Shown here: in pieces, positions 10,995-15,392 of the stretch
Layout: every line of letters starts with the position of its first letter
Numbering within the stretch: the stretch's first letter is position 1
From: Hyphomonadaceae bacterium
Lineage (GTDB): Bacteria; Pseudomonadota; Alphaproteobacteria; Caulobacterales; Maricaulaceae
DNA length: 40,604 nt
Assembly (NCBI GenBank): GCA_013001295.1
Contig: JABDMW010000056.1
Coordinates: 1-40,604 of the forward strand
Direction of reading: 5' to 3'
Notes under the pieces: model-generated
What the model was told of the DNA's origin: nothing
What the model saw: the letters and a program-made list of their open reading frames with translations, nothing else
The model's database searches: none
Program-made: the position numbers and the translations under genes

Positions 10995-13900
10995 CTAATA
11001 GGTTTTGATTTTCTGCACGCCTGGCAACGCCTTTAATGCGGCTTGAAATTTCCCATCGAGCGAGTATTGGCCAGGGAGTTTCAGATTGATCTCTCTTGCC
11101 TCGCCAATCGGGACAATAATATTCATTTTTCCCTTGGATTGAGCCGGTGCACTTTCCAAGCCTGCGATGCACCGTTTCAAGGCATCCATGGCCGTTTCAT
11201 CTTTGAGATACACTTGTAATCCAGCAAGCACTGGCGCGGTACTTTCGCCCAATGGTTTAATCGATTGGGTCGTCAGTCTGACCTCCCCGTCACGGGAATC
11301 CAGTTTGACCTGCAATTCCAGCATCGTGCCGGGCACCAGATACTCCCGGTATGCGCCCAAGAGCTCTTCGCCGGCGAATGTTTCGTATTCCCCGGTTGGA
11401 TCCGAGAAATTTAAGTAGGCAAAACGCTTTTTCGTGCGCTGCGATAAACGCTCTTGTTTCTTATGCAGTACACCAGCCATGCGCAATACGCGGCTTCCCC
11501 GCGCATACTCAGTGTCGATGTCCTCGCAAAGCTTCGTATTGCGTCGTCGCAAATTATCCATTTGCGGCTCGAGCGGATGGCCGCTGAGATAAAACCCTAT
11601 GGCACCCAGCTCTTCATCAAGCCGTTCGACACCACCCCAATCCGTGACCCCCGGCAGTTCCGGTTCAGCCATTTCTTCTTGGACATCGCCGAATAGGCTG
11701 TTCTGCGATGAATTCCTCTCCTGAGCTGATCGCGCGCCAATGGACTGAAGAATAGCTGAAGACGCATGGGTTTGGGCCCGATTGGGGAGAAGATTGTCAA
11801 ATGCCCCTGCCCGCGCCAAATTCTCATAAGCGCGCTTGTTCACAACCCGCGCATCAACCCGGCGGGCGAAATCGAACACGTCTTTAAACGGTCCGCCCTC
11901 TTCTCGCACCTCAACCACATGACGCATGGCTTCGACACCAACATTTTTAATCGCGCCGAGTGCATACAAAATTTTGCCGTCTTTGACTTCGAAGTCAGCA
12001 AATGTAGTATTTACGCATGGCGGCACAATGCCCAGTCCCATACGTTTGGATTCTTGATGAAAAAGAGCCAGTTTTTCCACATTGGCGATATCTAGGCTCA
12101 TGGAAGCCGCCATAAATTCGACGGCATAATTGGCTTTCAGATAGGCGGTGCGATAGGAGATCATCGCGTAGGCAGCGGCGTGGGATTTGTTAAACCCATA
12201 GCCGGCGAATTCGTTCACCAGATCGAATATACTGGATGATAGCACCTCTTTAATGCCGTTTTTCGCAGCCCCGTCGATAAAGATCGACTTTTGCCGCTGC
12301 ATCTCGTCCTTATCTTTCTTACCCATGGCACGGCGGAGAATGTCCGCGTCTCCAAGAGAATACCCGGACAGGACCTGAGCGATCTGCATCACTTGTTCCT
12401 GGTAGATAATGATCCCGTAGGTTTCCTTGAGAATACCCTCCAGGCTCGCATGAGGGTATTCAATCCGGGACGGGTCAAATTTACGCTCGATATAGCTATC
12501 GATATTCTTCATCGGTCCCGGACGGTAAAGAGAGATCAAAGCGGTCAGCTCTTCTACTGAACTCGGCTGCATCTTGCGCAGTGTATCGCGCATGCCGGAA
12601 CTCTCCAGTTGGAACACGCCTTGTGAAAAGCCTTTGGCCAACAAGGCATAGGACTTTTCATCATCAACTGGTGCGGTATCCAGATCGACTTCAATACCCT
12701 GGGCTTTGAGATATTTGAGCGCACGATCGATGACGGTCAGGGTTTTCAGGCCCAAAAAGTCGAATTTGACGAGACCGGCCTTTTCGACCCATTTCATCGT
12801 GAACTGGGTGGCGGGAATATCGGAACGCGGATCTTTGTAAAGGGCAACCAATTCATTTAAGGGTCGGTCGCCAATCACCACACCGGCAGCATGGGTCGAG
12901 GCGTTTCGGTACAGGCCTTCCAGTTGCAGAGCCACATTTAGAAGTTCGCGCACGGCAGGTTCCTGATCCCGTTCTTTTTTGAGGTCCGGTTCGAGTTGAA
13001 TGGCCTCGGCCAGGGTCACCGGATTGGCGGGGTTGGACGGGACCAATTTGGCTAAACGGTCAACCTGCCCCAAAGGCATTTGCATGACGCGGCCCACATC
13101 GCGCACAACGGCCCGTGCCTGCAGGGTCCCGAATGTGATAATATGGGCGACCTGCTCTTCGCCGTATTTCTCTTGCACATACCGGATCACTTCGCCGCGC
13201 CGCTCCTGACAGAAATCAATATCGAAATCAGGCATGGAAATCCGTTCCGGATTCAAGAACCGCTCAAACAGCAATCCATATCGCAGCGGGTCCAAATCGG
13301 TAATGGTCAAAGCCCAGGCGACGACGGAGCCCGCACCGGACCCCCGCCCCGGCCCGACCGGTATATCATTGGCCTTGGCCCATTTGATAAAATCCGAGAC
13401 GATGAGGAAATAGCCCGGGAATCCCATTTGCTCGATAACATTAAGTTCAAAGTCCAAGCGTTCAAAATATTCCTCGCGTGTCGCAAACAATTCTACTTTG
13501 CTCAAATGGGCTTCGAGACCCTCCCACGCCTGTTGTTTAAGGATATCGGTCTCAGATAAATTCTCATCGCCAAAACCCGGCAGGATCGGCGGCCGCTTCG
13601 GGCTGCGAAACGCGCATCGTTTGGCGATTTCGAGCGTGTTGTCGATGGCTTCCGGAATATCCGAGAAGAGCTCGACCATCTGCTCAGGTGATTTGAAATA
13701 ATTCTCGACGGATACATGACGCCGATCCGGCTCTAAAACATAGCTGCCCTCTGAAATCGCCAGCAAAGCGTCATGGGCTTTATGCATATCTTTATCGAGG
13801 AAATACGGTTCATTGGTCGCGACGATCGGTAGCTCATACTCATACGCCATTTCAATCAGCGCACTTTCCGCCTGTTGTTCGTGAATTTCTCCGTGTCGTT

Positions 13901-14444
13901 GCAACTCGACATAGAGGCGGTTCGGGAACCATTCCGCGAGCTTTTGTAAATACACCTTGGCCGTTTCAACTTGACCCGTGCAGATTTGCTTGTTGAGAAA
14001 GCCATCGCCACCACCCGTTAGCGCAATCAGCCCTTCACTGTGGCTGGCAATTTTCGATATTTTGACATGCGGCAGTTCAGTCGGCCCTGCATCGAGCGTC
14101 GCAGAGCTCGACAGTTTCATCAGATTTTCATAACCTTTTTCGGATTGTGCCAGTAGCACCAGCGTTCCGGCGAACTCTTTGCCGCCGTGGGGATTGAAAG
14201 CCTCATCCCCGGTTTCCAGATCGATCGTGAGCGTACAGCCCATAATCGGCTGAATACCGGCGCCGCTTAGTTTTTCAGAAAACTCCAGTCCTGCGCAAAT
14301 ATTATTGGTGTCGGTCAGACCGACCGCGGCCATGCGCCACTCTCGGGCTCGCTTGGCGAGATCATCAACTTTGATGGCGCCTTCAAGGATTGAATATGGG
14401 GTCCGGCACCGTAACGGAACAAATCTCGAGACCGCTCGCGCCAT
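10995..14444 (-). CDS. dnaE: DNA polymerase III alpha subunit (DnaE1, replicative)
   Basis: Encodes 1149 residues, typical for alphaproteobacterial DnaE1. The N-terminal PHP domain starts FVPLRCRTPYSILEGAIKVD and includes AVGLTDTNNICAGLEF. The polymerase core has VGPGRGSGAGSVVAWAL and the catalytic PDFDIDFCQERR near residues 403-414, with the aspartates in D-x-D spacing. A GYGFNKSHAAAYAMISY stretch and a C-terminal OB-fold/tau-binding region follow. It is the chromosomal replicase catalytic subunit. The start is preceded by a moderate TAGG. Only 45 bases separate it from the small ORF at 14490-14582 and its LexA-type promoter, so some dnaE transcription could respond to DNA damage (inference). 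Confidence 0.97.
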   Translation of the reverse strand: MARAVSRFVPLRCRTPYSILEGAIKVDDLAKRAREWRMAAVGLTDTNNICAGLEFSEKLSGAGIQPIMGCTLTIDLETGDEAFNPHGGKEFAGTLVLLAQSEKGYENLMKLSSSATLDAGPTELPHVKISKIASHSEGLIALTGGGDGFLNKQICTGQVETAKVYLQKLAEWFPNRLYVELQRHGEIHEQQAESALIEMAYEYELPIVATNEPYFLDKDMHKAHDALLAISEGSYVLEPDRRHVSVENYFKSPEQMVELFSDIPEAIDNTLEIAKRCAFRSPKRPPILPGFGDENLSETDILKQQAWEGLEAHLSKVELFATREEYFERLDFELNVIEQMGFPGYFLIVSDFIKWAKANDIPVGPGRGSGAGSVVAWALTITDLDPLRYGLLFERFLNPERISMPDFDIDFCQERRGEVIRYVQEKYGEEQVAHIITFGTLQARAVVRDVGRVMQMPLGQVDRLAKLVPSNPANPVTLAEAIQLEPDLKKERDQEPAVRELLNVALQLEGLYRNASTHAAGVVIGDRPLNELVALYKDPRSDIPATQFTMKWVEKAGLVKFDFLGLKTLTVIDRALKYLKAQGIEVDLDTAPVDDEKSYALLAKGFSQGVFQLESSGMRDTLRKMQPSSVEELTALISLYRPGPMKNIDSYIERKFDPSRIEYPHASLEGILKETYGIIIYQEQVMQIAQVLSGYSLGDADILRRAMGKKDKDEMQRQKSIFIDGAAKNGIKEVLSSSIFDLVNEFAGYGFNKSHAAAYAMISYRTAYLKANYAVEFMAASMSLDIANVEKLALFHQESKRMGLGIVPPCVNTTFADFEVKDGKILYALGAIKNVGVEAMRHVVEVREEGGPFKDVFDFARRVDARVVNKRAYENLARAGAFDNLLPNRAQTHASSAILQSIGARSAQERNSSQNSLFGDVQEEMAEPELPGVTDWGGVERLDEELGAIGFYLSGHPLEPQMDNLRRRNTKLCEDIDTEYARGSRVLRMAGVLHKKQERLSQRTKKRFAYLNFSDPTGEYETFAGEELLGAYREYLVPGTMLELQVKLDSRDGEVRLTTQSIKPLGESTAPVLAGLQVYLKDETAMDALKRCIAGLESAPAQSKGKMNIIVPIGEAREINLKLPGQYSLDGKFQAALKALPGVQKIKTY

Positions 14445-14489
14445 ATAAACCTATCCCATTCACTTTGGTTGTGACGTCTGTGTGTTCCC

Positions 14490-14582
14490 TTATCCGCCGA
14501 GAATCATCATCCAAACTGTCATCATGATTACGAATCCACCTAAAACCATTCCGCTCGAAATATCCATAACTAATTGCTTCAT
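14490..14582 (-). CDS. 30-residue single-span membrane peptide, SidA-like SOS peptide candidate
   Basis: ATG at 14582, TAA at 14492-14490, with GGAG placed 7 bases before the start. The peptide begins MKQLVMDISSGMV and ends in WMMILGG. It has seven Met (1, 6, 12, 20, 21, 25, 26), one Trp (24), only two charged residues (Lys2, Asp7), and one hydrophobic stretch over about residues 11-28. It is thus a short cytoplasmic N-terminus plus one membrane helix. Its promoter carries a perfect alphaproteobacterial LexA box. Known biology: Caulobacter SidA is a 29-residue single-span peptide, induced in the SOS response, that blocks division through the FtsW/FtsN divisome. Length, topology, LexA control and (as I recall) position beside dnaE agree. 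Sequence homology is untested, so no symbol is given. Alternatively it is a leader or oxidase-associated small peptide. Confidence 0.65.
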   Translation of the reverse strand: MKQLVMDISSGMVLGGFVIMMTVWMMILGG

Positions 14583-14616
14583 TTTCGGTCTCCGTTTTCC
14601 CTTATATGTGTACGTT

Positions 14617-14631
14617 GTTCTTGTTTTGTTC
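14617..14631 (-). promoter_or_regulatory. LexA (SOS) operator, GTTC-N7-GTTC
   Basis: The plus strand reads gttcttgttttgttc: two GTTC half-sites in direct repeat with a 7-base AT-rich spacer, i.e. GAAC-N7-GAAC on the transcribed minus strand. This is the LexA box established for alphaproteobacteria, distinct from the E. coli CTGT-N8-ACAG palindrome. It overlaps the last base of the putative -10 box and lies 34 bases before the small ORF's ATG, the right place for LexA to block RNA polymerase. Confidence 0.8.
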
Positions 14632-14659
14632 TTTTATGGAATGAAAACGAGAACGTCAA
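14631..14659 (-). promoter_or_regulatory. Promoter of the SOS small ORF
   Basis: The minus strand shows TTGACG (14659-14654), a 17-base spacer, and TAAAAG (14636-14631). The -35 is near consensus and the spacing is ideal; the -10 is weaker. The LexA box begins at the last -10 base. The only genes directly downstream are the 30-codon ORF and then dnaE. Confidence 0.6.
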
Positions 14660-14687: not shown

Positions 14688-15392
14688 CTAGACCGTCCGC
14701 TTCCCATTATACGGCACAACGTGACCATCCTTCACCGTGAAGACCCGGTCCATATAGGCGGTCAGGGCCATATTGTGGGTGGCGACGAGGGCTGAAACGC
14801 CTTCGAGGCGCGTCGAGTCAAACAGGCTCTGGAACACATTGCCCGAGGTATTTGGATCGAGATTACCAGTGGGCTCATCAGCCAACAGGATTTTCGGTTT
14901 ATTGGCAATGGCGCGGGCAATAGCCACACGCTGTTGTTCCCCGCCGGACATTTGTGACGGTTGATGATGGGTACGCTCTGACAGCCCCATAATCCCGAGC
15001 AATCGATTTGCCTCTGCGCGTGCTTCACTTTGGGATTTTCCGGCAATCATTTGTGGTAAGGCGACATTGTCGAGGGCAGTAAATTCGCGCAGCAAATGAT
15101 GGAATTGATAAACGACACCAATAGAATTGCGCCGGATGGCTGTGCGTTCATTATCTGACAAAGACAGGCATTCCCGCCCGCCGATCCAGACTTCGCCGGC
15201 ATTGGGTTTTTCGAGCAAGCCTGCTGCATGCAGTAAGGTTGATTTACCACTGCCGGACGGGCCGACAAGCCCGACCATTTCGCCGGGATAAATATCGATA
15301 TTGGCCCCAACCAGGACGTCCAATACGGTATCGCCGGACTTGAACGAGCGATGGATATTGCGGGCCGACAGGATGGGTGTGCGATCATTCAT
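14688..15392 (-). CDS. lolD: LolD, ATPase of the lipoprotein-releasing ABC transporter
   Basis: Encodes 234 residues. Walker A GPSGSGKS is at 44-51, the ABC signature MSGGEQQRVAIARA starts at 148, and Walker B ILLADEPTGNLD starts at 168, followed by an ATHN switch His. LolD powers extraction of mature lipoproteins from the inner membrane for delivery to LolA. The gene overlaps the end of lolC by 8 bases. A small imperfect hairpin (14683-14704) spans its stop codon and could weakly end transcription before the SOS promoter. Confidence 0.95.
   Translation of the reverse strand: MNDRTPILSARNIHRSFKSGDTVLDVLVGANIDIYPGEMVGLVGPSGSGKSTLLHAAGLLEKPNAGEVWIGGRECLSLSDNERTAIRRNSIGVVYQFHHLLREFTALDNVALPQMIAGKSQSEARAEANRLLGIMGLSERTHHQPSQMSGGEQQRVAIARAIANKPKILLADEPTGNLDPNTSGNVFQSLFDSTRLEGVSALVATHNMALTAYMDRVFTVKDGHVVPYNGKRTV

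Follow-up and report, generated by a model that had tools for sequence, protein, structure and literature searches.

The window analysed here, a 40,604-nucleotide stretch of DNA from a Hyphomonadaceae bacterium, carries on its minus strand lolD, a 30-codon ORF and dnaE, in that order. The ORF (14490..14582, minus) comprises 30 codons and a stop, starts with ATG and has the sequence MKQLVMDISSGMVLGGFVIMMTVWMMILGG. In its product a short N-terminal segment, MKQLVMD, precedes a single predicted transmembrane helix, with hydropathy marking the peptide as hydrophobic from about residue 11, and the C-terminus is Gly-Gly; there are seven Met residues, and the only charged residues are Lys2 and Asp7. 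In its size and its single predicted span the peptide agrees with SidA. A Shine-Dalgarno sequence, GGAG (14590..14593, read as 14593-14590 on the minus strand), was recognized by eye 7 nt before the ATG, and a purine-rich 4-mer, any of eight being accepted in this loose test, precedes the start in 71 of 72 candidate ORFs of relatives. An earlier note on this DNA had described a short ORF with a Shine-Dalgarno sequence on the coding strand of the lolD–dnaE interval, with 30 codons, one hydrophobic helix, seven Met and charge only at Lys2 and Asp7; our reading of the ORF bears out this description throughout.

Downstream, dnaE (10995..14444, minus), encoding the DNA polymerase III alpha subunit, is identified by the equivalog model NF004226 at 1407 bits against a cut-off of 1002. 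The upstream gene, lolD (14688..15392, minus), takes its name from the best-scoring model, TIGR02211, at 250 bits, which is below the curated cut-off of 308. The fixed downstream neighbour of the ORF is dnaE; on the upstream side, only some of the relatives share lolD with this genome. Because the gap between the ORF stop codon and the dnaE ATG (14445..14489, minus) is only 45 nt long and holds no terminator-like site, the ORF and dnaE may lie on a shared transcript. A consensus scanner found no consensus sigma-70 promoter and no terminator at the locus.

A candidate LexA operator

At 14617..14631 (minus), 34 nt upstream of the ATG, lies a LexA-type box that reads GTTCTTGTTTTGTTC on the plus strand and GAACAAAACAAGAAC on the minus strand, an exact GTTC-N7-GTTC in the plus-strand reading. 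This motif is described as the Caulobacter LexA operator (PMC12700426, PMC9578287). The earlier note had claimed a perfect alphaproteobacterial LexA operator in the promoter, and the exact box was indeed found, at the matching place, in all nine aligned genomes of the genus; as far as sequence can tell, the ORF promoter thus has the candidate LexA-type operator expected of a sidA gene. A likely −35 element, TTGACG (14654..14659, minus), is represented by CTTGAC in eight of the nine genus sequences and by CTTGC in the ninth; given that −35, the box would cover the −10/+1 region.

The credibility of the box derives from its conservation, since the core by itself occurs at chance frequency in this genome: there are 80 exact sites in 3.49 Mb, no more than the 93 for a reversed control pattern, and box frequency was accordingly rejected as evidence. 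When the surroundings of 20 site-bearing stretches of this genome, mostly chosen for AT-rich cores, were inspected, exact boxes were also seen 116 nt upstream of recA and in the interval from ssb to uvrA. Another box preceded a gene that matches ImuA weakly (44.9 bits against a cut-off of 150), and the remaining inspected boxes lay within genes or ahead of genes that have no known part in the SOS response. A separate observation concerns an exact AT-rich LexA-type box (L006, 1501-1515; G000:C9:38943-38957) that lies 24 nt upstream of the gene for a SMODS/CBASS-type nucleotidyltransferase, in which SMODS scores above its Pfam cut-off; this defence system is possibly under SOS control.

Conservation of the ORF upstream of dnaE

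The genus comprises 14 genomes including that of the window, of which nine were read at dnaE; G005, G008, G009 and G010 fall outside that set, and the stretch fetched for G004 does not contain dnaE. All nine genomes have the ORF with an identical start, and frame and helix are kept as well, so that the peptide withstands the conservation check in close relatives that the earlier note had proposed. At the level of the genus, pN is 0.13 and pS 0.57. All 36 genus pairs have pN below pS, as do all pairs in nine other groups. Judged by these substitutions, the ORF peptide is under strong purifying selection.

Beyond the genus, 80 upstream regions of relatives were compared, 50 from the window's family (f1), 13 from f3, nine from f5 and eight from f4; 78 of these were placed by dnaE and two f3 regions (L118, L119) by a SidA hit. 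When up to one mismatch is allowed in the box, its combination with a hydrophobic ORF of 26-36 aa occurs in 72 of the 80 regions in the sense orientation versus seven in antisense, and in 60 versus two when the box has to be exact. This combination exceeds chance. By family, the sense counts are 50/50 in f1, 13/13 in f3, 9/9 in f5 and 0/8 in f4.

In many relatives a second box, often GAACAAAA-N3-GAAT, is found approximately 15-26 nt before the nearer box upstream of dnaE, giving tandem LexA-type sites (for example, in L099-L106 and L112-L117). The motif GAACAAAA-N3-GAAT, starting 43-95 nt before dnaE, is also present in six of 20 f4 genomes that have no peptide before dnaE (G224, G084, G152, G238, G055 and G210; L094-L097, L266, L330), with 0/20 in antisense; the corresponding counts are 0/15 sense and one antisense in f2, and 50 sense and one antisense in the 72 peptide-bearing regions. 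The motif points to a possible LexA-like control of dnaE itself.

The choice of dnaE as the anchor for these comparisons was made because many genomes of the genus have lolD and dnaE at separate places. In a lolD-anchored survey dnaE was next to lolD in 14 of 30 loci, the window's own included, and the peptide was present in 11 of those 14, the other three being f2 loci; looking downstream of lolD only was dropped.

A model built from family peptides matches 88 of 91 sampled f1 genomes at one place each, a count that includes 34 peptides matching by construction, as they were built into the model; the f1 genomes without a match to it are G345, G367 and G370. In 85 of the 86 matched f1 genomes with a dnaE coordinate the match lies immediately before dnaE and in the same orientation, at a distance of 14-236 nt (median 74 nt, match edge to match edge), the sole exception being G391, where it lies 1.3 kb upstream; G329 and G139 were matched and have no dnaE coordinate. 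The other families differ. No peptide was found before dnaE in 15/15 f2 genomes read, where dnaE follows 25-107 nt behind lolD, nor in 20 of the 30 f4 genomes read, while the f4 genera g9, g11 and g57 carry one; absence here refers to the region before dnaE only.

Relationship to Caulobacter SidA

SidA is represented in NCBIfam by the model NF033228 (div_inhib_SidA), with a cut-off of 35 bits. The window peptide does not pass this cut-off and gives no match to the model even at E 10 (hmmscan), nor does it match anything else in NCBIfam or Pfam; none of 34 family peptides matches NF033228 at E 1. A whole-genome search with the same model returned one weak match in this genome, at E 0.228, for which no position was given.

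Comparison of profiles gave a different picture. Alignment of the 34 family peptides with 15 Caulobacteraceae peptides by hhalign gave 93.4% (E 2.6e-7, score 28.2), with Met1 placed on Met1. None of 300 column shuffles reached that score (best 17.2), and reversal gave 0.3%. Shuffling the helix only likewise failed to reach it in 300 trials, with a best score of 25.3 at 90% probability; that this came so near indicates that much of the profile match comes from the N-terminal residues. With the family model, 15/15 Caulobacteraceae peptides exceeded the 99% level set by shuffled decoys; in the reverse search, the Caulobacteraceae model placed 4/56 family peptides and 0/9 genus peptides above the 99% decoy level. 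A genus-only profile aligned with SidA at 10% and out of register, and was rejected as too shallow an alignment. Homology by profile is therefore found at the level of the family alignment. The family model reaches two of nine f5 and two of three f4 peptides, and it is place, size and box that underlie the presumed homology of the f5 and the f4 g9 and g11 peptides.

The second line of evidence is position. Among 398 genomes of the order, NF033228 scores above cut-off in 42, all of them f3, and among 14 named control genomes in one, C. vibrioides being one of seven with any match. In each of the 25 of the 42 genomes whose dnaE start was placed, SidA lies directly before dnaE. A scan of named genomes yielded 38 loci: a box and a peptide before dnaE were found in 24 of 26 Caulobacteraceae-type loci, the upstream sequence of the two others being 42 and 137 nt long, and in none of 12 loci from more distant bacteria (Dongia, Cypionkella, Pseudorhodobacter and others). 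The 24 include C. vibrioides DSM 9893 (L159), with a 29-residue peptide, above the SidA cut-off, before dnaE and lolD no more than 2 kb upstream. Since SidA in Caulobacteraceae is adjacent to dnaE, the window ORF and SidA occupy one and the same place, as the earlier note had guessed in proposing a SidA-like locus.

Scores against NF033228 vary widely among such peptides. That of G132 (C11) reaches 69.9 bits, above the SidA cut-off, whereas a syntenic Caulobacteraceae peptide (L028) reaches 23.5 bits, so that the model misses members even there. We also observed that four f3 g55 genomes (G271, G396, G399 and G402; L321-L324) carry before dnaE a peptide, such as MVSALHNMLSFAAVTGFVFLMCHVVSLAA, that scores below the SidA cut-off.

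On the strength of the profile relation and the shared place before dnaE, the ORF may be regarded as a diverged sidA ortholog, and orthology is well supported at this level. Of the two alternatives put forward in the earlier note, we prefer the diverged SidA; an analogous new checkpoint peptide is not needed.

Convergence would mean that, in the window's family, the position before dnaE was taken up by an SOS membrane peptide of separate origin that came to work like SidA. The window peptide has no single-sequence similarity to the SidA model, and short helices converge easily; nevertheless, place, size and kind of box are shared by f1, f3, f5 and part of f4, intermediates such as MRRVVQDVSAATAVLGFAWMIAMWGSVLGAA exist, and the profile match is in register and beyond the reach of column shuffles, which together make convergence improbable. 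We consider it equally unlikely that the ORF encodes a membrane-damaging SOS peptide, which would lower the membrane potential and bring about dormancy without binding FtsW. TisB of Escherichia coli is an SOS-controlled single-span peptide, and both TisB and DinQ act on the membrane. DinQ is described as an SOS-regulated toxic single-span inner-membrane peptide of E. coli (PMC3567139). The size, predicted single span and presumed SOS control of the window peptide fit such a toxin as well as they fit SidA; the orthologous place and the profile relation to SidA speak against it. Least probable of all is a leader ORF or translated promoter element that tunes dnaE by its translation, its peptide having no role: the ORF lies close before dnaE in 85 of 86 genomes of the family, with no terminator-like site between them in the window, but the peptide is under strong purifying selection with its helix kept, and a needed leader would hardly allow the absence of the peptide before dnaE in every f2 genome read.

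Residue 145 of FtsW

The FtsW changes F145L and A246T are reported as suppressors of SidA in Caulobacter (PMC4211646). FtsW was numbered from a start at MASNATHA, which gives Phe145 and Ala246 in G132, and loci L196-L227, L229-L258 and L289-L316 were used; L317 and L318 (G250, G297) were omitted as more RodA-like. The FtsW of the window's genome has Phe145 and Ala246, as in C. vibrioides.

In a set of 90 genomes, the peptide was present in 52, as judged from the region before dnaE in 49 and from a SidA hit above cut-off in G040, G127 and G237. Of these, 36 have Phe145 and 16 another residue (Leu in 14, Met in one, Val in one), the latter being 11 f5 genomes and five of f4 g11. Where no peptide was found before dnaE (35 genomes), residue 145 is Leu in 34 and Phe in one, G248 (f4 g52), an incomplete genome with a partial FtsW; the remaining three genomes were left unassigned. 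Thr246 occurs in three f5 genomes (G022, G026 and G231) and in G172 of f4. The four f3 g55 genomes mentioned above all have Phe145.

Position 145 is the only one of 390 that fully separates 31 rows with the peptide (f1, most of f3, f4 g9) from 32 without it (f2 and six f4 genera, including G157, whose dnaE region was unseen). This comparison omits f5, f4 g11, f3 g55 and g58, and f4 g32, g42, g44, g52 and g54, among which f5, g11 and g52 (G248) break the simple rule. On an FtsW tree made by a quick method, the distribution needs only three changes of the peptide and four of the residue, and we therefore treat the pattern at residue 145 as a lead rather than a result. At most three to four independent pairs can be drawn on the tree, one of them on well-supported branches, which is not significant; covariation with FtsW was rejected as proof because independent changes are too few. 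Because all 16 peptide-bearing genomes of f5 and f4 g11 lack Phe145, a contact at this residue would not be universal.

Discussion

The data lead us to regard the ORF, with considerable confidence, as a diverged SidA ortholog that is induced by DNA damage via LexA and acts on FtsW, a function inferred from the relationships set out above. After DNA damage RecA would make LexA cleave itself, thereby freeing the box. The peptide would then be made and would insert as a single inner-membrane span, where it is predicted to bind FtsW in the late FtsW/FtsI/FtsN complex and to hold the complex inactive, so that septation stops. SidA holding FtsW/FtsI/FtsN inactive is the model given in PMC4211646. 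Induction may extend to dnaE: with 45 nt and no terminator-like site separating it from the ORF stop codon, its transcription may likewise increase after damage.

A bolder proposal, which we advance tentatively and would not at present favour, is that SidA is an ancient, order-wide part of a LexA-controlled sidA–dnaE unit that has co-evolved with FtsW. Where the peptide has gone from before dnaE, FtsW would have taken on a natural Leu145, the change that confers SidA resistance in Caulobacter, and the f5 lineages that keep the peptide with Leu, Met or Val at 145, and in part with Thr246, would have to use another contact.

SidA, a much-studied SOS inhibitor, halts division in Caulobacter during the repair of damaged DNA; NF033228 passes its cut-off in one family of this sample, and not in all of that family. 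If the assignment is true, the SidA checkpoint operates in almost all of the window's family, and probably also in parts of two other families. Such genes are missed because they are so short; a box and a helix of 28-31 codons before dnaE provide a rule for finding them. Natural pairs of peptide and FtsW, including those lineages without the peptide, would allow the SidA contact on FtsW to be mapped directly. A literature search, which did not extend to the original SidA paper (Modell 2011), returned no paper whose title concerns SidA outside Caulobacter, the adjacency of sidA and dnaE, or naturally occurring residues at FtsW 145.

Among known systems, SidA of C. crescentus/vibrioides resembles the window peptide in its length of 29-31 residues, its single span with a hydrophobic helix, its acidic residue near position 7, its LexA-type box and the place of its gene directly before dnaE. 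The window peptide differs from SidA in lying below the reach of NF033228, in lacking the Caulobacteraceae FVWM core, in being Met-rich with a C-terminal LGG, and in that its function is inferred. YneA of Bacillus subtilis and SosA of Staphylococcus aureus share the membrane location, differ from the window peptide in length and phylum, and are taken as analogous. Both are described as SOS-induced division inhibitors, and YneA as interacting with FtsW (PMC13396833, PMC6851548). DidA of C. crescentus is likewise presented as a small single-span division inhibitor that works on the same FtsW/FtsI/FtsN complex, and differs in being the 71-residue product of another gene, described as SOS-independent (PMC4211646).
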